This document shows, piece by piece, positions 6,906-36,277 of a DNA stretch of 37,056 nt. The DNA comes from Fibrobacterota bacterium (lineage in GTDB: Bacteria; Fibrobacterota; Fibrobacteria; UBA11236), in assembly GCA_019509785.1 (NCBI GenBank), contig JAEKLQ010000061.1, forward strand, positions 1 through 37,056, in the 5' to 3' direction. A program made the translations under genes and the position numbers. How positions within the stretch are numbered: position 1 is the stretch's first letter; every line of letters begins with the position of its first letter. The notes under the pieces were generated by a model. It searched no databases and was not told the origin of the DNA. It was given only the letters and a program-made list of their open reading frames with translations.

Positions 6906-6914
6906 TGGTATAAT
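6906..6914 (+). promoter_or_regulatory. Extended -10 promoter for the hybrid histidine kinase
   Basis: TGGTATAAT is a perfect extended -10 element (TGn followed by TATAAT), 24 nt before the kinase ATG. I see no good -35 hexamer at the usual distance, which is typical of extended -10 promoters. Confidence 0.55.
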
Positions 6915-6938: not shown

Positions 6939-8885
6939 ATGAATTACCTCCGCAGCATCCTGGACTCGAGCTTTATGCCCCACGGGCATTGCTTTTTCTG
7001 GACCCCGGATATCCTATGGCTGCACGTGATCGGGGACGCCGTCACCGCCACCTCTTATTACTTGATCCCTTTCGCCCTCGTCTACTTCGTCTGGAAGCGC
7101 AGGCACCTTCCTTACCCATCGCTCTTCATCATGTTCGGCATCTTCATCCTGGCTTGCGGGACCACCCATATCATGGGCGTAGTCACGCTCTGGCATCCCC
7201 TGTACCGCTTGGAAGGCGTCATCAAGGTGGTCACCGCCATCGCCTCCATCGCCACCACCATCGCGCTGTACCCGGTCATTCCCAAGGCCCTCCGCCTTCG
7301 CACTCCGGAAGAGCTGGAAAGCATCAATGTCCAATTGGCCGAAAAGAACTGGGAACTGGCGGCGGGGCGCGAGAGCTTCCGGAACATCGTCGAGCGCGAC
7401 CCGGGCGGAATCGTGGTACTCGCCATGGACGGCACCATCGTCTTCGCGAATCCGTCTTCCCGGCAGTACCTCCCCGGGACCCCGGCCGACCCCGTAGGAG
7501 GCCGGGTGCCGGAAGCGCCGGGAGGCGGCGCCGCGGCGGAGTTCACCTACGGCGCCGATTCCGAGGGCCCGCTCATCGCCGAGTCCTGGATCTCGGAAAC
7601 GCAGTGGCAGGGATTGCCCGCGCAATTGGTCCACCTGCGCGATATCACCGCGCGCAAGCGCACCGAGGCGGCCCTCCGCCTGAGCCAGGAGCAATTGCAG
7701 CAAGCCCAGAAGATGGACGCCATCGGCCGCCTGGCCGGAGGCATCGCGCACGATTTCAACAACCTGCTCACCGCCATCAACGGATTCACTTCCCTCTCCC
7801 TGGTCAAGCTGCCCGCGGAGAACCCCGTGCGGGAGCATTTGATCGAGGTGGCGAGGGCCGGGGAACGCGCCTCCCAGCTTACGCGCCAACTGCTCGCTTT
7901 CAGCCGCAAGCAACTCCTCTCCCCCCAGAGCGTCGATCTGAACAAGGTCGTAGCTGAAATGGGGAACATGATCCGCCGTATCATCGGCGAAGGTTTTACG
8001 GTAGCCACCCGCCTTGATCCGGATTTAGCCCCTATCCGCATGGATCCCGGCCAGCTCGAGCAGATAATCATCAACCTTGCCGTCAACGCGCGCGACGCCA
8101 TGCCAGATGGCGGCGAGCTTTTGATCGAAACCGCCGGCTTCGCTTTCACGACCGGGATGATCGGGGCGCTCGATTCCTTCCGGCCCGGGAACTACGCCAT
8201 GCTGGCGGTTTCGGACAAGGGCCAGGGGATGAGTCCGGAAGTGATGGCGCGCCTTTTCGAACCCTTCTTCACGACCAAAGCCCCGGGCAAAGGGACCGGG
8301 CTGGGTCTCTCCATGGTCTACGGCATCGTGAAGCAGAGCGAGGGACATATCATGGTGACCAGCGAACCGGGCCGGGGCAGTACTTTCAAACTCTATTTCC
8401 CCCTGGCTCCGGAGGCGGGCGCCCTCGAGGCCAAAGCCGCCGAGACCCCCGTCGCCGAGCGTCCCGGGCATGAGACCGTCCTGCTTGTCGAAGACGAAGC
8501 GGCCGTGCGCCGGCTCGCCTCCGAAGTCCTCAGGTCCGCGGGCTACCACGTCCTCTCCGCCCATGACGGCGAGGCGGCCCTGGATCTGGCCCGGCGTTAT
8601 GCCGAGCCCATCCACATCCTGGTTACCGACGTCATCATGCCCAAGCTGAAGGGCTCGGAGGTGGCTCGCCAACTGGCACGCAGCCGTCCCGACATCCGCA
8701 TCCTCTACATGTCCGGCTTCACCGAAGACGCGGCCGTCCGCAACGGCATCCTCAACGACTCCGTCGCATTCCTGCAGAAGCCCTTCTCCACCTCCCAACT
8801 CCTCTCCTTCGTCCGCAAACTCTTGGACGCTCCCGCGGTGGGCCAAGCTGCCCAGACCTCCCGAGAAGGCAACGCACCCGCTTAA
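6939..8885 (+). CDS. Hybrid histidine kinase with ethylene-receptor-type N-terminal sensor
   Basis: A 648-residue membrane sensor kinase. Residues 20-120 form three membrane helices closely resembling the plant ETR1 ethylene-binding domain. The ETR1 residues Asp25, Tyr32, Cys65 and His69 correspond to Asp33, Tyr40, Cys73 and His77 here, all at a constant offset of 8; Cys65 and His69 are the copper(I) ligands. Then come a coiled linker, a PAS domain (about 145-238), a HisKA domain with the phosphoacceptor His271 ([11 protein letters not shown]), an ATPase domain (Asn383, DKGQGM 426-431, GKGTGLGLS 450-458) and a C-terminal receiver with Asp564 (VTDVIMP). No output domain follows, so a separate response regulator or phosphotransfer protein is expected; none is nearby. 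The ATG has no Shine-Dalgarno sequence. The domain assignment is strong; ethylene as the ligand is an inference, since such domains in bacteria may sense other copper-binding molecules. Confidence 0.93.
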
Positions 8886-8942: not shown

Positions 8943-9041
8943 ATGGGTCTGGCTGGAGCGACGAGGCGGACGGGCCGGGATATGTCTATTCGCATTCTAG
9001 CGGAGTGGGTCTGGCGGGAGAATCCGGCGGTCGGGCCGGGA
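8943..9041 (+). repeat. Imperfect tandem repeat, two units about 62 nt apart
   Basis: ATGGGTCTGGCTGGAG and GTGGGTCTGGCGGGAG open units of 38 and 37 nt, and both end in CGGGCCGGGA. The similarity fades after the unit end. No further full copy is present. Confidence 0.45.
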
Positions 9042-9310
9042 CCGGCTCCTGGCGATTTACAACGGGGCGGGGGCGGTGGATGGTCAGCCCGGCCGGGGCG
9101 GGTCTCCGGGCTGCCGAGTTATGAGCGTCACGGCCTAAAGACGCGCATGACTTCCCACATCGAAAGCCCGCGCTCCCCAATTGCGCGGGCGGTCGCGTCT
9201 ACAGGCCGTGTACTGACCCAACCGCATCGCAAGCGAATAGCCGAGGCATCCCGGAGCCACGCCCCGGCCAGACCAACCTCAACAGCAGAGCCACCCCCAC
9301 CCGCCTTTCC

Positions 9311-9318
9311 TATTTTGT
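9311..9318 (+). promoter_or_regulatory. TAnnTTTG-like box 8 nt before the mfd TTG start
   Basis: TATTTTGT lies 8 nt before the TTG at 9327, with no Shine-Dalgarno sequence between them. The same arrangement precedes fur, aroA and others in this window. It supports TTG 9327 as the start of a leaderless or near-leaderless message. Confidence 0.4.
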
Positions 9319-9326
9319 CCTTTCCC

Positions 9327-12300
9327 TTGAAAACCAAAGCCGCCCGTACTTTTCCCTTAAGCGAACTCTTCGGCGAAGAAGCCTTCCCGGCTTTGGCCAA
9401 ACTCGAATTCCGCGCGGCCGATCCTCTCTACGTCGCCGGCCTCGCCGGCTCATCGGTTTCCGCCCTCATCGCCCGCCAGTTTCACGACGGCGGAAGCGCG
9501 GGCAAGTCCGCCGGCGATATCCTCTACCTGGCCCCGGACTCGAAGACGGCCGAGATGGTCGCCGAAGACCTGGAATCCTGGTTGGGCGAAGAACAAGTGC
9601 TGCTCTTCCCCGGGCTCGATCTCAAGCCCTATGAATGGCGCAAGCCCTTCGGGCACGTGCTGGAGCAAAGGCTGGAAGTCTTCGAGGCCTTGTACCGTAA
9701 GCGCCGCTCGGTGGTGGTCGCCGCCCTCCCGACCTTCCTGACGCGGCTGTCGAGCCCGGATTCCCTGCATCTGGAAATCCTCACCCTGGCCAAAGGCCAG
9801 ACCATCCAATTGGAGGACTTCAAGTCCACCTTGTTGCATATGGGATTCAACGAAGCCCCGGTGGTGCAGGACATCGGGGAGTTCTCCGTGCGCGGCGAAA
9901 TCATCGACGTCTATCCGTACCTCCTCGACAATCCCGTGCGCATCGTGCTGTTCGGGGACGAGATCGAATCGGTAAAGGAATTCGACATCTTCACGCAACG
10001 TTCGGTGAAGGAAATCCCGTCCGTGGATGTCTTCCCGCTGGACGAATGCTGTTTCACCCCGAGGGAACTGGAAGCGGGGATGGAGAAGCATCTCGATCGC
10101 TTCGTGGGGGAAGGATCATTCGAGGCCGAAAACCATCGCCTGATGGTGAAGCGCGACTTCGAAGGCATCCATTGGCAAAAAGCCTTTTTCAAGGATCTGA
10201 AATATTCATTGCTGGACTTCCTGGGCCCGAACGCCCGCGTGGTGGTGGGCGATCAGGACGGGCTCAAGGCCGGGGTGGAAAAGCTTTGGGACGGCGCCAA
10301 GGAAGGCTACTCCGAGGCGCTCGCGAAGGAAAAATGGGTCGCCAAGCCCGAAGAGCTTTTCTTCTCGCTAAAGGAATTGGAAAGCCTGCTAAGCGGAAAA
10401 CCCTCCTTGCGGCTGGGGCGCTTGAGTTGGGAAGGCCCCGGCTGCCGCACCTTCGATATGCAGGACCAGGGACGCGGCGGCGGCGGTTTGGCCCAGGTCG
10501 AGCACGTGTTCCACGATCTGGACGCCGAAGGCATCCGCATCTACCTGCTTTCCTCCAACGAAGGCCAGGCCGATCGCCTGCGCAAGCTGACCGCGGAGCA
10601 ACCCATCGCCGGCGTGGCGGTGGGCCATCTCAACGGCGGCTTCATCGATCGCGACGACGGCATCGCCGTCTTTACCGATCACCAGATCTTCAACCGCTTC
10701 TCGCGGGCGGTCAAGCGCAAGCGGAACAAGGGCGGCGGAGTCTCCATCCAGAACTTCGAAGCCTTGGCGCGCGGCGATTACGTGGTCCACGAGGATTACG
10801 GCATCGCCCGCTTCGTAGGCGTGAAGCGTATCAAGACCCGCCCGCCGTTCTCAGGCGGCATCGACGCACCGGTCCCCGCCGAGATCCAGGTCGATTGCAT
10901 CCTGCTCGATTTCTACGGCTCCGACAAGCTGACCTTGCCGGTCACCGATCTCTCCAAGCTGGAGAAATATTCCTCCGAGGAAGGCCACGTCCCCGTCCTG
11001 TCCAAGCTGGGCGGCAAGGGCTGGGAGAACCAGAAGGAGAAGGCCAAGAAGTCGATCGTCAAGTTGGCCAAGGAGCTGATCGAGCTTTACGCCAAGCGTT
11101 CGGTGATCCCGGGCTACGCATTCGGGCCGGACACCCATCTGCAGAAGGAGTTCGAGGACGCCTTCGAATTCGATCTCACGCCGGACCAGGCCAAAGCCGT
11201 CGCCGACGTGAAGGCGGACATGGAAAGGCCCAAGCCCATGGACCGCCTGATCTGCGGCGACGTCGGCTTCGGCAAGACCGAAGTGGCCATGCGCGGGGCC
11301 TTCAAGGCCGTGGCGGGCAAGAAGCAGGTATGCGTATTGGCGCCCACCACCATCCTCGCGGCGCAGCATTTCAGCAGCTTTTCCGACCGCTTCGCGGCCT
11401 GGCCGGTGCGTATCGATTACCTGAACCGCTTCAAATCGCCCAAGGAGCAGAAGGAAACCCTGGCGGCCCTGGAGCGCGGCGAAATCGACATCATCATCGG
11501 CACCCATCGGCTGGTATCCAAGGACGTGGCCTTCAAGGATCTGGGCCTGATGATCATCGACGAGGAACAGAAGTTCGGGGTGAAGCAGAAGGAGCGCCTC
11601 AAGGAGATGCGGACCCACGTGGACGTGCTCTCCATGTCGGCCACGCCCATCCCGCGCACCCTTAACATGTCCCTGGTGGGCGCGCGCGACTTATCCATCA
11701 TCGCCACGCCTCCGCGCAACCGTCTGCCCATCGACACGCGCGTCCTCTTCCACGATCCCAAGCAAATCCGCGACGCCATCGAAATGGAATTGGCCCGCGG
11801 CGGGCAGGTTTTCTACGTGCATAACCGCGTGATGGATCTTCCCGAGGTGACCAAGAACGTGGAGGGCCTGGTGCCGCATGCGCGCGTGGGCATGGCGCAC
11901 GGGCAGATGGATGAGGTGGGCCTGGAGCAGGTGATGGCCGCCTTCGTGAACCGCGAGTACGACGTGCTGGTCGCGACCGGCATCATCGAGTCCGGGTTGG
12001 ATATCCCCAACGCGAATACCATCATCATCAATCGCGCGGATCTGTTCGGGCTGTCGCAGTTGTACCAATTGCGCGGGCGCGTGGGCCGTTCCGCTACCAA
12101 GGCCTATTGCTACCTCATCAGCCCGGACGCCAACCGCTTCACCGACGAGGCCAAGAAACGTCTGTACTCCCTAGAGAAGTTCACCGACCTGGGCTCGGGC
12201 TTTCAGATCGCCATGCGCGACTTGGAAATCCGCGGGGCGGGTAACATCCTGGGGTTGGAGCAGAGCGGGCATATTGCGGCGGTAGGGTTCGAAACCTACC

Positions 12301-12815
12301 ATCGCATGCTGCGCGAGGCGGTGAAGGAAATGCAGGGCGCCAAGATCATCCCGCCGCTCAATCCCGAAATCGAATTTCCGGAAGACGCCTTCATCCCCGA
12401 GGAATACGTGGAGGACGGCTTCCAACGCGTGGCCCTGTACCAGAAGCTGGCGCGTTGCGAGGAGATCGCCCAGCTCGACGAATTGCGCGGGGAACTGCTG
12501 GACCGCTTCGGGCAATTGCCGCCTTCAGTGTCGGTGCTGATCGCGAGCATGATCGCCCGAGTGGCCGCGCAGAAAATGGGATTCCAGAAGGTGGTCCTAA
12601 ACGGAAACCTTCTCAATCTGCAATTCGCCGAAATGCATGTCCCGGAGAAAGAAGCCTTGGGCGAGCTCGTGAAGAAATTCAAACGGCCGATGCGTTTCCT
12701 GTATACGCAGCCGTTGCAGATGCTGGTGGAGCTGAACCCGCCGACCAAGGGCGACACGCATGCGCTCATCGCTCAGGCCTCGCAAATCCTGCGCGACCTG
12801 GTCCAAGGTGTTTAG
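9327..12815 (+). CDS. mfd: Transcription-repair coupling factor Mfd
   Basis: Mfd frees RNA polymerase stalled at DNA damage and recruits UvrA for nucleotide excision repair. From TTG 9327 the protein is 1,162 residues, the usual family length. The frame is open back to 8943 and an ATG exists at 9147, but the extra residues are low-complexity and unlike Mfd. In order it has a UvrB-like N-terminal module (DILYLAPDSKTAE, LFPGLDLKPYEW, EFSVRGEIIDVYPY), the RNA-polymerase-interacting region (GDYVVHEDYGIARFVGV), and the helicase: Walker A GDVGFGKTEVAMRGAF, DEEQ box IIDEEQKFGVKQKERL, motif III SMSATPIPRTLNMSL, the translocation motif region, GRVGRSATKAYCYL, and the TRCF C-terminal domain. All motifs look intact. 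It stands alone; the next gene is 178 bp away. Confidence 0.97.
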   Translation: MKTKAARTFPLSELFGEEAFPALAKLEFRAADPLYVAGLAGSSVSALIARQFHDGGSAGKSAGDILYLAPDSKTAEMVAEDLESWLGEEQVLLFPGLDLKPYEWRKPFGHVLEQRLEVFEALYRKRRSVVVAALPTFLTRLSSPDSLHLEILTLAKGQTIQLEDFKSTLLHMGFNEAPVVQDIGEFSVRGEIIDVYPYLLDNPVRIVLFGDEIESVKEFDIFTQRSVKEIPSVDVFPLDECCFTPRELEAGMEKHLDRFVGEGSFEAENHRLMVKRDFEGIHWQKAFFKDLKYSLLDFLGPNARVVVGDQDGLKAGVEKLWDGAKEGYSEALAKEKWVAKPEELFFSLKELESLLSGKPSLRLGRLSWEGPGCRTFDMQDQGRGGGGLAQVEHVFHDLDAEGIRIYLLSSNEGQADRLRKLTAEQPIAGVAVGHLNGGFIDRDDGIAVFTDHQIFNRFSRAVKRKRNKGGGVSIQNFEALARGDYVVHEDYGIARFVGVKRIKTRPPFSGGIDAPVPAEIQVDCILLDFYGSDKLTLPVTDLSKLEKYSSEEGHVPVLSKLGGKGWENQKEKAKKSIVKLAKELIELYAKRSVIPGYAFGPDTHLQKEFEDAFEFDLTPDQAKAVADVKADMERPKPMDRLICGDVGFGKTEVAMRGAFKAVAGKKQVCVLAPTTILAAQHFSSFSDRFAAWPVRIDYLNRFKSPKEQKETLAALERGEIDIIIGTHRLVSKDVAFKDLGLMIIDEEQKFGVKQKERLKEMRTHVDVLSMSATPIPRTLNMSLVGARDLSIIATPPRNRLPIDTRVLFHDPKQIRDAIEMELARGGQVFYVHNRVMDLPEVTKNVEGLVPHARVGMAHGQMDEVGLEQVMAAFVNREYDVLVATGIIESGLDIPNANTIIINRADLFGLSQLYQLRGRVGRSATKAYCYLISPDANRFTDEAKKRLYSLEKFTDLGSGFQIAMRDLEIRGAGNILGLEQSGHIAAVGFETYHRMLREAVKEMQGAKIIPPLNPEIEFPEDAFIPEEYVEDGFQRVALYQKLARCEEIAQLDELRGELLDRFGQLPPSVSVLIASMIARVAAQKMGFQKVVLNGNLLNLQFAEMHVPEKEALGELVKKFKRPMRFLYTQPLQMLVELNPPTKGDTHALIAQASQILRDLVQGV

Positions 12816-27365: not shown

Positions 27366-27403
27366 GGGCGCCGCTTTCCAGCGCCCGCCGGCATGAATGC
27401 CGG
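27366..27403 (+). other. Two hairpins between propeller and LPMO genes
   Basis: GGGCGC/GCGCCC (27366-27371, 27381-27386) and CCGGCAT/ATGCCGG (27388-27394, 27397-27403) lie between the propeller stop and the LPMO start. With no T-run they may set relative expression or protect the message rather than terminate. Confidence 0.4.
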
Positions 27404-27428
27404 ATTCCGAACCTTGGGAGGAAGGACG

Positions 27429-28256
27429 ATGCGTTCCTTCATTTCGTTTTGCATTCTGCTCGGTACGCTCGCGGTTTCCCTCCCGCATGCCCACGGCCTC
27501 ATCGAAGATCCCCCTTCGCGGATGTGGATCTGCGGGGAGGAAACCAAACCCGATCAAATCGCCTTGAAGTCGGCGAAGACCCCGGCCTGCTCCACCGCCT
27601 TCGCCATCAACCAGGATGCCGCCTACAACTTCATGGCGGTGGTCAATCATACGTTAGGCCGCTCCCATGACAATCCCTTGCCGGCCTACGTGTGCGGATA
27701 CGCAGGGGAGTTCTGGAAAGGGGCCGAAACGCCTTGGGACGTCCCCATGGACTGGCCCGCTACGCCCATGTCCGCGGGGCCTAAAGCCATTACCTGGAAC
27801 GTCGTCTGGGGGCCGCATTTCGATGACACGCATGAGTTCAAGTATTGGATCACCAAGCCCGATTTCGTGTTCTCGCCGACCAAGGCGCTCGCCTGGGACG
27901 ATTTCGAAACCGAGCCCTTCTGCTCCCTCACCTACGACGATACCAAGCCGGACGCCAATCCGGCCATCACCGCCGATAAGCCTGGCAACCGCTTCGTGAC
28001 CCGATGCACCTTGCCCGCCCGCACCGGGCATCATGTCGTTTACGGGGAATGGGGCCGTACCGAGCCGACCCTGGAACGCTTCCACGGCTGCTTCGACGGG
28101 CAATTCGGCGGGACCCCAATCCGGATCCCCTACCGCCCGCGCGATCCCGGCCGCTCGAGTCCCGCATCCAGCCCGACCGGCTTGGACCTGTTAGGCCGCC
28201 CCCGGGACCTTGGCCGACCAGGAATCTTGCCCCGCGCGCCGGCAAGCACCCGCTAG
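27429..28256 (+). CDS. AA10-family lytic polysaccharide monooxygenase
   Basis: A 275-residue copper enzyme that breaks chitin or cellulose chains by oxidation. The ATG at 27429 has a GGGAGGAAGGACG ribosome site; an earlier in-frame start at 27393 lacks one. The signal peptide ends PHA, so the mature protein starts with His (HGLIEDPPSRMWICG). That N-terminal His is one arm of the copper histidine brace and HGxxxxPPSR is the AA10 hallmark. The second His is in DDTHEFKYWIT. Later RTEPTLERFHGCFDGQF matches the end of the AA10 core, and the Cys residues fit the usual disulfides. A short Pro/Arg-rich tail follows, with no carbohydrate-binding module. It lies between two secreted propeller genes. 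Chitin or cellulose specificity cannot be decided by eye. Confidence 0.9.
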   Translation: MRSFISFCILLGTLAVSLPHAHGLIEDPPSRMWICGEETKPDQIALKSAKTPACSTAFAINQDAAYNFMAVVNHTLGRSHDNPLPAYVCGYAGEFWKGAETPWDVPMDWPATPMSAGPKAITWNVVWGPHFDDTHEFKYWITKPDFVFSPTKALAWDDFETEPFCSLTYDDTKPDANPAITADKPGNRFVTRCTLPARTGHHVVYGEWGRTEPTLERFHGCFDGQFGGTPIRIPYRPRDPGRSSPASSPTGLDLLGRPRDLGRPGILPRAPASTR

Positions 28257-34398: not shown

Positions 34399-34845
34399 AT
34401 GCGAACCGCCTTGCTCCGGTATTGCCTTCCCGTGACCTTGGTTTTCCCCGCCCTTTCCCTAGCTTCCCTCGGATATGCCCTAAAGCATGATGCCGATCTC
34501 TATCGGACCGAAACCCTGGAGCCTCCGCCCTTGGCCTCCTTGGAAGCCGGGCAATCTGTGCGCATGCTGCATCCCGGCGCCGCCCAATCCCTCGTGGAGA
34601 CCGTGGGCGGATTGAAAGGCTGGGTCCGCAACGGGGACTTGTTGGCGCTGGCGCCGGCGGGCGCGCAAAAGCATGAATTACCGAATCAGAAGGTGACCGG
34701 CGCGGGCGATGTGAACGTCAGCCCTTGGGTCAATAACGGGGCGGTGGACGCGGACATGGCCGTGGCCCCGGACCGCGCCTTCGCGGCGGAAATCATCGAG
34801 ACGCTGGATAAAGAGCAGGTCGAAATGCGCCACGACGAGAATTGA
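34399..34845 (+). CDS. Small exported protein with an SH3-like region
   Basis: A 148-residue exported protein; the ATG follows CGGAGGACCCT. Residues 1-25 are a signal peptide. Residues 30-85 (DLYRTETLEPPPLASLEAGQ... VRMLHPGAAQSLVETVGGLKGWVRNGDLLAL) have the pattern of bacterial SH3 domains, which often bind cell-wall peptides. The C-terminal part contains no known domain. The last 53 bp overlap the convergent pectate lyase gene. The SH3 call is moderate. Confidence 0.7.
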   Translation: MRTALLRYCLPVTLVFPALSLASLGYALKHDADLYRTETLEPPPLASLEAGQSVRMLHPGAAQSLVETVGGLKGWVRNGDLLALAPAGAQKHELPNQKVTGAGDVNVSPWVNNGAVDADMAVAPDRAFAAEIIETLDKEQVEMRHDEN

Positions 34846-36277
34846 CCGAGCGCTCCTCGTCCTGCCGGCGGCCCAAGGCATCGACCTCGGGCCCGCCATG
34901 GGCGGTGGAGGTCGATGGTACGCCGGCCGCCGCGGGCCGGGCCCCGATGGCGACCGTCATCCCGTATTCGAAAGCCCCCAGATCGGGGGCCGAGCCCGCG
35001 AAGGGCAATCCCACGTCCTTACCCTTGCCGATTAAATGGCTGTTTGCCGACAACTTCAGGAAAGAGACGTCCGGGAGGCTGCCGTCCGGTTTGCGCGGGC
35101 CGAACACGCCGGCCGTATCCACGCTCTGGAAGTCCGATGCCGCCACGGTCAATCCGGAAATGTCCCAGGAGTTGAAGGCCGCATCGGCCCCGGTCGCGCT
35201 CGCCGTGGCGGTGCCTTGGAAAGCGACGTTGTTCCGGTAGATGCCCATCCCCGCGTCCGCGGCCTTGGCCAGGTCGTAGCCGAGCATGTTGAAGGCGACG
35301 CCGTGATTGGCGTACGCGGTATTGTTGTAATAGAAGTTGTCCACGGGTTGATGATTCTGATAGAAGCCCGCGGCCTTGTTCAGGAAGGAGATGCAGCGGC
35401 GTATGGTATGTTGCGGGATGGGATCGGGGTACTTCGCGGGAGGATTGCCCCATCCCCCGATCTTGAAACCGTTCCCGTTCCCGTCCGGCGCCGAGGTGGT
35501 GGTGCCGGGCTTATAGCCGTTGAGCGCGTTCCAACTATCCTCGATCATCACCGCCACGCCTTGGTTGATGCAGTCGAAACCGTCGTCGGAATTCCACCAG
35601 GCGCGGCAGCCGCGCAGGATGGTCGGCGGGCCCGACTTCTGGTAATGCACGCCGAAGCCATCCGCGTTCTGCCCGTTCCCCTGATCCGAAAATTCGTCAT
35701 AATTGTGATGCGCATCGCAATTGAGGATAAGGTTGCCGCCGTTGCCGTAGGCCAGGAACAATCCCGCCCCCGCGTTATGGTGGATATCCAGGTTCTCGAA
35801 AATGGTATTGCTGGTCGGATTGCCCCAGATGCCGTTGCAGGATCGCTTCCCGGTCATGGGTACGTTCCGGATTTCGAGCCCCTTCAGGTACAACCAGTTC
35901 CCGCCTTCGATCCAGATGCCGGCCCCGGTGACGGTAGGATCCAGCTGCGCCGCTGAAAAATCGAGGACCGGCTTCTCGGCGCGGTAGGCCCAATAGCAGA
36001 TGCGCTTGGTTTCCGAAGTCCCGCTTTTGGTCAGGTGGATGCCGGAGTTGGCCGCCGGCGTCTTGCCGATTTTATAGGTCCCGCCCCGGAGGAAAACGGT
36101 ATCGCCCGGGCTCGCGGCATCCTGGGCGCGCTGCATGCTGGCGAAGGGCTTCTCTAGGGTTCCCGCGGCGGAATCATCGCCGGCGACTGCGACATAATAA
36201 ACGGCGGCGCCTGCCCGACCGGCTCCCAGGACCAGGGCTCCCGCGAACAATCCCGAGGCGATGCTTTTCACCATCAT
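34793..36277 (-). CDS. PL9-type pectate lyase, secreted
   Basis: A 494-residue exported parallel beta-helix enzyme that cleaves pectate by beta-elimination with calcium. Residues 1-24 are a signal peptide. The family core is clear: NADGFGVHYQ (204-213), SDDGFDCI (230-237), IEDSWNALNGY, and NGNGFKIGGWG with Lys272 at the position of the catalytic Lys of Pel9A. Asp206, Asp231, Asp232 and Asp235 correspond to the calcium ligands. Then YNNTAYANHGVAFNM. A C-terminal tail of about 40 residues is basic and low-complexity (GGPEVDALGRRQDEERSVNSRR). The ATG at 36277 (a second is one codon on) follows GGAAAG. Activity is inferred from the conserved residues. Confidence 0.9.
   Translation of the reverse strand: MMVKSIASGLFAGALVLGAGRAGAAVYYVAVAGDDSAAGTLEKPFASMQRAQDAASPGDTVFLRGGTYKIGKTPAANSGIHLTKSGTSETKRICYWAYRAEKPVLDFSAAQLDPTVTGAGIWIEGGNWLYLKGLEIRNVPMTGKRSCNGIWGNPTSNTIFENLDIHHNAGAGLFLAYGNGGNLILNCDAHHNYDEFSDQGNGQNADGFGVHYQKSGPPTILRGCRAWWNSDDGFDCINQGVAVMIEDSWNALNGYKPGTTTSAPDGNGNGFKIGGWGNPPAKYPDPIPQHTIRRCISFLNKAAGFYQNHQPVDNFYYNNTAYANHGVAFNMLGYDLAKAADAGMGIYRNNVAFQGTATASATGADAAFNSWDISGLTVAASDFQSVDTAGVFGPRKPDGSLPDVSFLKLSANSHLIGKGKDVGLPFAGSAPDLGAFEYGMTVAIGARPAAAGVPSTSTAHGGPEVDALGRRQDEERSVNSRRGAFRPALYPASR

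Follow-up and report, generated by a model that had tools for sequence, protein, structure and literature searches.

The plant ethylene receptor ETR1 sits in the ER, has a GAF domain and acts through CTR1. The ethylene-binding domain is a well-known modular sensor that is already widespread in bacteria, where cyanobacteria and Azospirillum have already been found to perceive ethylene. AzoEtr1 of Azospirillum brasilense binds ethylene directly (PMC11819568), and Geitlerinema, which encodes GeiEtr2, is an ethylene-responsive cyanobacterium that features in a study of cyanobacterial responses to low ethylene (PMC6682694). In Arabidopsis ETR1, seven residues are required for ethylene binding (PMC6682694, PMC11819568).

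The locus described here comes from Fibrobacterota, a phylum known above all for breaking down cellulose. It lies in a window of 37,056 nucleotides (the whole stretch of DNA that was analysed), and its host appears to be a large-genome member of the phylum outside Fibrobacteraceae. This placement is based on a single gene: a 1,3-1,4-beta-glucanase of Fibrobacter succinogenes is 100% identical to a gene product of G105, a genome from the class to which the host also belongs, which points to Fibrobacterota and to a family other than that of Fibrobacter. The encoded protein is probably an ethylene-receptor-type membrane sensor, in which a horizontally acquired ethylene-binding domain is joined to a kinase body of the host lineage. 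The sensor family itself is already known; what is new is a full-site copy in Fibrobacterota, which extends the above list, and its apparently chimeric make-up.

The sensor domain and the kinase body

The reading frame of the kinase gene is intact (Table 1). Residues 25-120 match the Pfam family ETR1_N (PF25487; E 2.4e-36, 124.3 bits against a cut-off of 27), and AlphaFold2 places three long helices at residues 23-53, 60-85 and 89-118, with pLDDT mostly 80-93 and in agreement with hydropathy. A comparison of the domain sequence with solved structures gave no match. Judged by its sequence, the N-terminal domain is a member of the ethylene-receptor family rather than of some other family of membrane proteins. 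The earlier note had suggested searching the N-terminus against ethylene-receptor families; this returned PF25487, with no grouping with a non-ethylene membrane family.

In alignment with ETR1, Asp33, Tyr40, Cys73 and His77 correspond to Asp25, Tyr32, Cys65 and His69. These four had been claimed to lie at one constant offset, which is indeed the case (+8), and the same offset holds for Ile43, Pro44 and Ile70 (ETR1 Ile35, Pro36 and Ile62), so that all seven ethylene-binding residues are present. The ETR1 seven are taken here to be D25, Y32, I35, P36, I62, C65 and H69; the residue numbering of the AtETR1 sequence used is consistent with the published positions. Such a set of residues is above chance, since a search for the seven-residue pattern gives one occurrence in the six-frame translation of the window and none in 100 codon shuffles, while the four-residue pattern occurs on average 0.05 times per shuffle (100 shuffles). 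Across 90 bacterial relatives, the Asp is kept in 89 and the Pro in 86, and the only ligand-site residues that are invariant in all 90 are the Tyr, the helix-2 Ile, the Cys and the His.

Table 1. Features of the window. Positions are those of the window; empty cells indicate that no value is given.
Feature	Position	Strand	Basis or remark
Open reading frame, seemingly running off the contig end	1..1411	-	repeats of ~370 bases
Large multi-helix membrane protein, ORF up to 1288 aa	3123..~6800	-	divergent neighbour
Possible extended -10 promoter element TGGTATAAT, 24 bases before the ATG	6906..6914	+	read from sequence; weak
Hybrid histidine kinase gene, 648 aa	6939..8885	+	ethylene-binding domain, coiled-coil, degenerate PAS, HisKA, HATPase_c, receiver
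ETR1-type ethylene-binding domain, residues 25-120, three predicted TM helices	7011..7298	+	PF25487, AlphaFold2, hydropathy
Helix 1 ligand-site residues Asp33, Tyr40, Ile43, Pro44	7035..7070	+	alignment with AtETR1 and 90 bacterial relatives
Helix 2 copper/ethylene residues Ile70, Cys73, His77 (predicted site)	7146..7169	+	Cys and His equivalents in 90/90 relatives
Degenerate PAS-like domain, ~residues 140-240	7356..7658	+	PAS_4, congener kinase L111, AlphaFold2
HisKA dimerisation/phosphoacceptor domain, residues 263-325, His271	7725..7913	+	PF00512, motif
HATPase_c catalytic domain, residues 369-490; N, G1, F and G2 boxes intact	8043..8408	+	PF02518, motifs, CckA fold match
C-terminal receiver (Response_reg), residues 514-625; Asp564 phospho-acceptor, Glu518/Asp519, Ser592, Lys614	8478..8813	+	PF00072
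mfd (transcription-repair coupling factor)	8943..12815	+	57 bases downstream of the kinase gene
D-Ala-D-Ala carboxypeptidase (S13/PBP4) fused to AmiA-like amidase domain, 791 aa	22353..24728		
LPMO10, copper-dependent	27393..28256		PF03067
PelN-like pectate lyase	34793..36277		429 bits, under the equivalog cut-off

A coiled-coil at about residues 119-150, predicted by AlphaFold2 as a helix at 123-150, follows the sensor. Scanned alone, the stretch between the sensor and HisKA matches PAS_4 with E 1.9e-4, just under the Pfam cut-off; the region is 41% identical to that of the congener kinase L111, and its PAS strands are partial and of low confidence in the AlphaFold2 model. As in a hybrid histidine kinase, His271, the N, G1, F and G2 boxes, Asp564 and Lys614 are all intact in one chain. 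PF25487 followed by HisKA, HATPase_c and Response_reg bears out the proposal of an ethylene-receptor-type sensor on a bacterial hybrid kinase. The AlphaFold2 model of the whole protein has a mean pLDDT of 82.9, with the kinase and receiver domains well predicted. The nearest solved structure to the kinase core is that of CckA (5idj/5idm, 46%), while the match to the CckA equivalog NF046020 stops at 407 bits against a cut-off of 1000; the protein is CckA-like in the kinase core only. A scan with the sigma-70 consensus upstream of the gene found no full -35/-10 pair, and RNA-family and tRNA scans of the window gave no matches.

Distribution, locus and origin

In a scan of GTDB genomes, at least 549 loci related to the ethylene-binding domain were found in many phyla. 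The best 80 of these include members of Cyanobacteriota, Pseudomonadota, Verrucomicrobiota, Acidobacteriota, Bacteroidota, Myxococcota, Bdellovibrionota, Nitrospirota, Planctomycetota and candidate phyla. Such domains had been described as known in cyanobacteria and some other bacteria; their range is far wider, with at least nine phyla. The outputs attached to the domain in the relatives vary, and include HisKA and HWE kinases, PAS domains, receivers and GGDEF/EAL. Genes with the domain are also encountered on plasmids, namely Acaryochloris pMB01 and the mobilizable Blastomonas plasmid pBSY18_2, where the gene lies beside an integrase and two response regulators. Plasmid carriage is a possible route of spread for the domain.

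Within Fibrobacterota, the domain exceeds the Pfam cut-off in one of 168 genomes, the window's own, where it is present in a single copy. This agrees with the earlier description of the copy as uncommon in such an organism. No ethylene-binding domain was found in five congeners of 90-98% completeness. A second match in the phylum (22.6 bits, under the cut-off) was rejected as a different membrane sensor without the helix-2 CGxxH. A literature search, which covered few subscription journals, found no paper pairing an ethylene receptor with Fibrobacter.

The kinase gene is followed by mfd, which is 83-86% identical to mfd of several congeners and opens the block mfd-PPIase-surA-methyltransferase-ABC ATPase-ybjQ, syntenic in the congener G159. 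In four congeners and three genomes of the sister genus, an msrAB fusion gene is found directly upstream of mfd; msrAB is present in tandem in G159, and the G157 contig includes no more than the end of the gene. From the window species msrAB is missing, a weak 37% partial match being found elsewhere in its genome, and the site upstream of mfd is taken up by the sensor kinase and a divergent large membrane protein. From the gene order, the locus upstream of mfd is rearranged in the window species. The divergent membrane protein has no Pfam match over the cut-off and no homologue in the five congeners; its listed ATG overlaps the sensor gene, and the real start is probably internal. The absence of an adjacent output regulator, as previously claimed, is confirmed for the neighbours scanned, none of which is a response-regulator gene. 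The only receiver at hand is the C-terminal one within the kinase protein. Elsewhere in the window, the open reading frame at the contig end consists of repeats encoding secreted-looking domains and has 48% GC, as opposed to ~62% for the rest; further along, a carboxypeptidase is fused to an amidase domain (Table 1).

The two halves of the protein have different relatives. Residues 140-632 can be aligned along their whole length with the genus's own kinases of REC-PAS-HK-REC type (L111, L002 and L112-L114) at 46-48% identity and 431-455 bits, compared with 335 bits for the best kinase among 90 other proteins bearing this sensor. Collinearity with the genus kinases starts near residue 116, just past helix 3. 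In the kinase tree, which is moderately resolved, the window protein groups with the genus kinases and one Gemmatirosa kinase (87/77). In the sensor tree, the window protein pairs with Legionella sp. PC1000 (57% identity, support 94/94, from ~140 columns only), and the pair lies in a mixed, mostly proteobacterial group, away from most cyanobacteria. The simplest reading of these alignments and trees is that an acquired sensor domain was joined to a kinase body of the host lineage, replacing the N-terminal receiver. The protein would then be a natural chimera in which the origins of sensor and kinase can be told apart.

Import of the whole gene in one piece, from a bacterium that already carried the fusion, would also account for its absence from the congeners and for the rearranged site, and the Gemmatirosa kinase core is nearly as close as those of the congeners (50%, 354 bits). 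However, among the sampled proteins only the kinases of the congeners match in the linker and PAS region, and none of the 90 combines this sensor with this kinase body. The nearest candidates are rejected by AU tests, both when the window kinase is placed with the nearest sensor-bearing kinase (p 0.0018) and when it is grouped with six sensor-bearing kinases (p 5e-6). The GC and base composition of the gene equals that of its surroundings, and thus a recent import of the whole gene is not visible. Since the 90 relatives were chosen by sensor and not by kinase, whole-gene transfer retains some weight; it is nevertheless doubtful, and less likely than assembly within the lineage. It is extremely improbable that an assembly or binning error brought in the sensor gene from a different organism in the sample. 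The draft state of the genome (106 contigs) and the restriction of the gene to this one genome of the phylum would fit such an error, but the same contig places the gene 57 bases from a congener-like mfd and then the syntenic surA-ABC block, the composition is even, and the kinase body resembles those of the genus. Contamination is argued against in particular by the linkage to an mfd of genus type.

Proposed signalling and ligand

The identity and order of the domains, the complete residue set and the intact kinase and receiver motifs are read directly from the sequence; we infer the copper, the ligand, the direction of the response, the phosphorelay partners and the benefit to a plant-polymer degrader. 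By analogy with ETR1, AzoEtr1 and SynEtr1, the three-helix domain would dimerise in the inner membrane, with Cu(I) held by Cys73/His77. If ethylene, or another small olefin-like ligand, bound at the metal, the packing of the helices would change, and the signal might then travel via the coiled-coil and the PAS-like relay and modulate a CckA-like autophosphorylation of His271. From there, phosphate would move to Asp564 of the receiver, and a phosphotransfer protein would pass it on to a regulator whose gene lies elsewhere. A phosphorelay would be the natural route because the receiver is part of the same protein.

The genome encodes copper P-type ATPases, which offer weak support for copper loading, given that such ATPases are, to our knowledge, near-universal. 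The LPMO and the pectate lyase on the contig support a plant-polymer-degrading life; that the sensor kinase is linked to them is only a suggestion from their shared location.

Alternatively, the domain may bind Cu(I) but report copper availability, redox state, oxygen, CO or some other small pi-ligand, in which case the residues would be kept for the metal rather than for ethylene. The short list of residues that are invariant in the 90 relatives would fit this, and nothing ethylene-related is found in the gene neighbourhood. A copper or oxidant link is also thinkable given the ancestral neighbour msrAB, a methionine sulfoxide reductase, and the copper-dependent LPMO of the contig. Such a ligand is nonetheless unlikely: the protein retains the complete set of ethylene-binding residues, and those of its close relatives that have been characterised either bind ethylene or respond to it (PMC11819568, PMC6682694).

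If ethylene is indeed bound, the protein would give rise to a testable idea, namely that decomposers read the gas of plant ripening and senescence. Tentatively, a lineage-specific fusion may be envisaged in which a REC-gated cytoplasmic kinase swapped its input receiver for an acquired ethylene-binding domain. This might let a plant-polymer degrader detect senescing or wounded plant tissue by way of a gas, with the fusion protein controlling a global CckA-like relay. Existing knowledge of how the receptor works is unchanged by the window protein.

Comparison with known receptors and kinases

The sensor domain is about 45-49% identical to that of AzoEtr1, for which a 525-aa protein was taken, its length matching that in the paper. 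Similar to the window protein, AzoEtr1 has a three-helix domain with the seven residues, followed by PAS and histidine kinase domains. It is described without a receiver, whereas the window protein has one, and its kinase half is distant from that of the window protein (107 bits).

Identity of the sensor domain to GeiEtr2 is 48% (a 1025-aa protein was taken as GeiEtr2, again matching the published length). SynEtr1 and GeiEtr2 share with the window protein the same sensor domain and site residues, as well as one N-terminal Cys (Cys18 in the window protein). SynEtr1 differs in having a light-sensing GAF domain and in signalling to the response regulator slr1213, while the window protein has neither a GAF domain nor an adjacent regulator.

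The plant receptor ETR1 and the window protein share the order sensor, kinase, receiver, and their sensors are identical at 42 of 121 residues. Where ETR1 has a GAF domain, the window protein has a PAS-like relay, and its kinase is bacterial and CckA-like. The CckA-type kinases and the REC-PAS-HK-REC kinases of the genus share with it the PAS-HisKA-HATPase-REC body, which is 46-51% identical. The kinases of the congeners begin with a cytoplasmic receiver, in contrast to the window protein, which begins with a membrane sensor.
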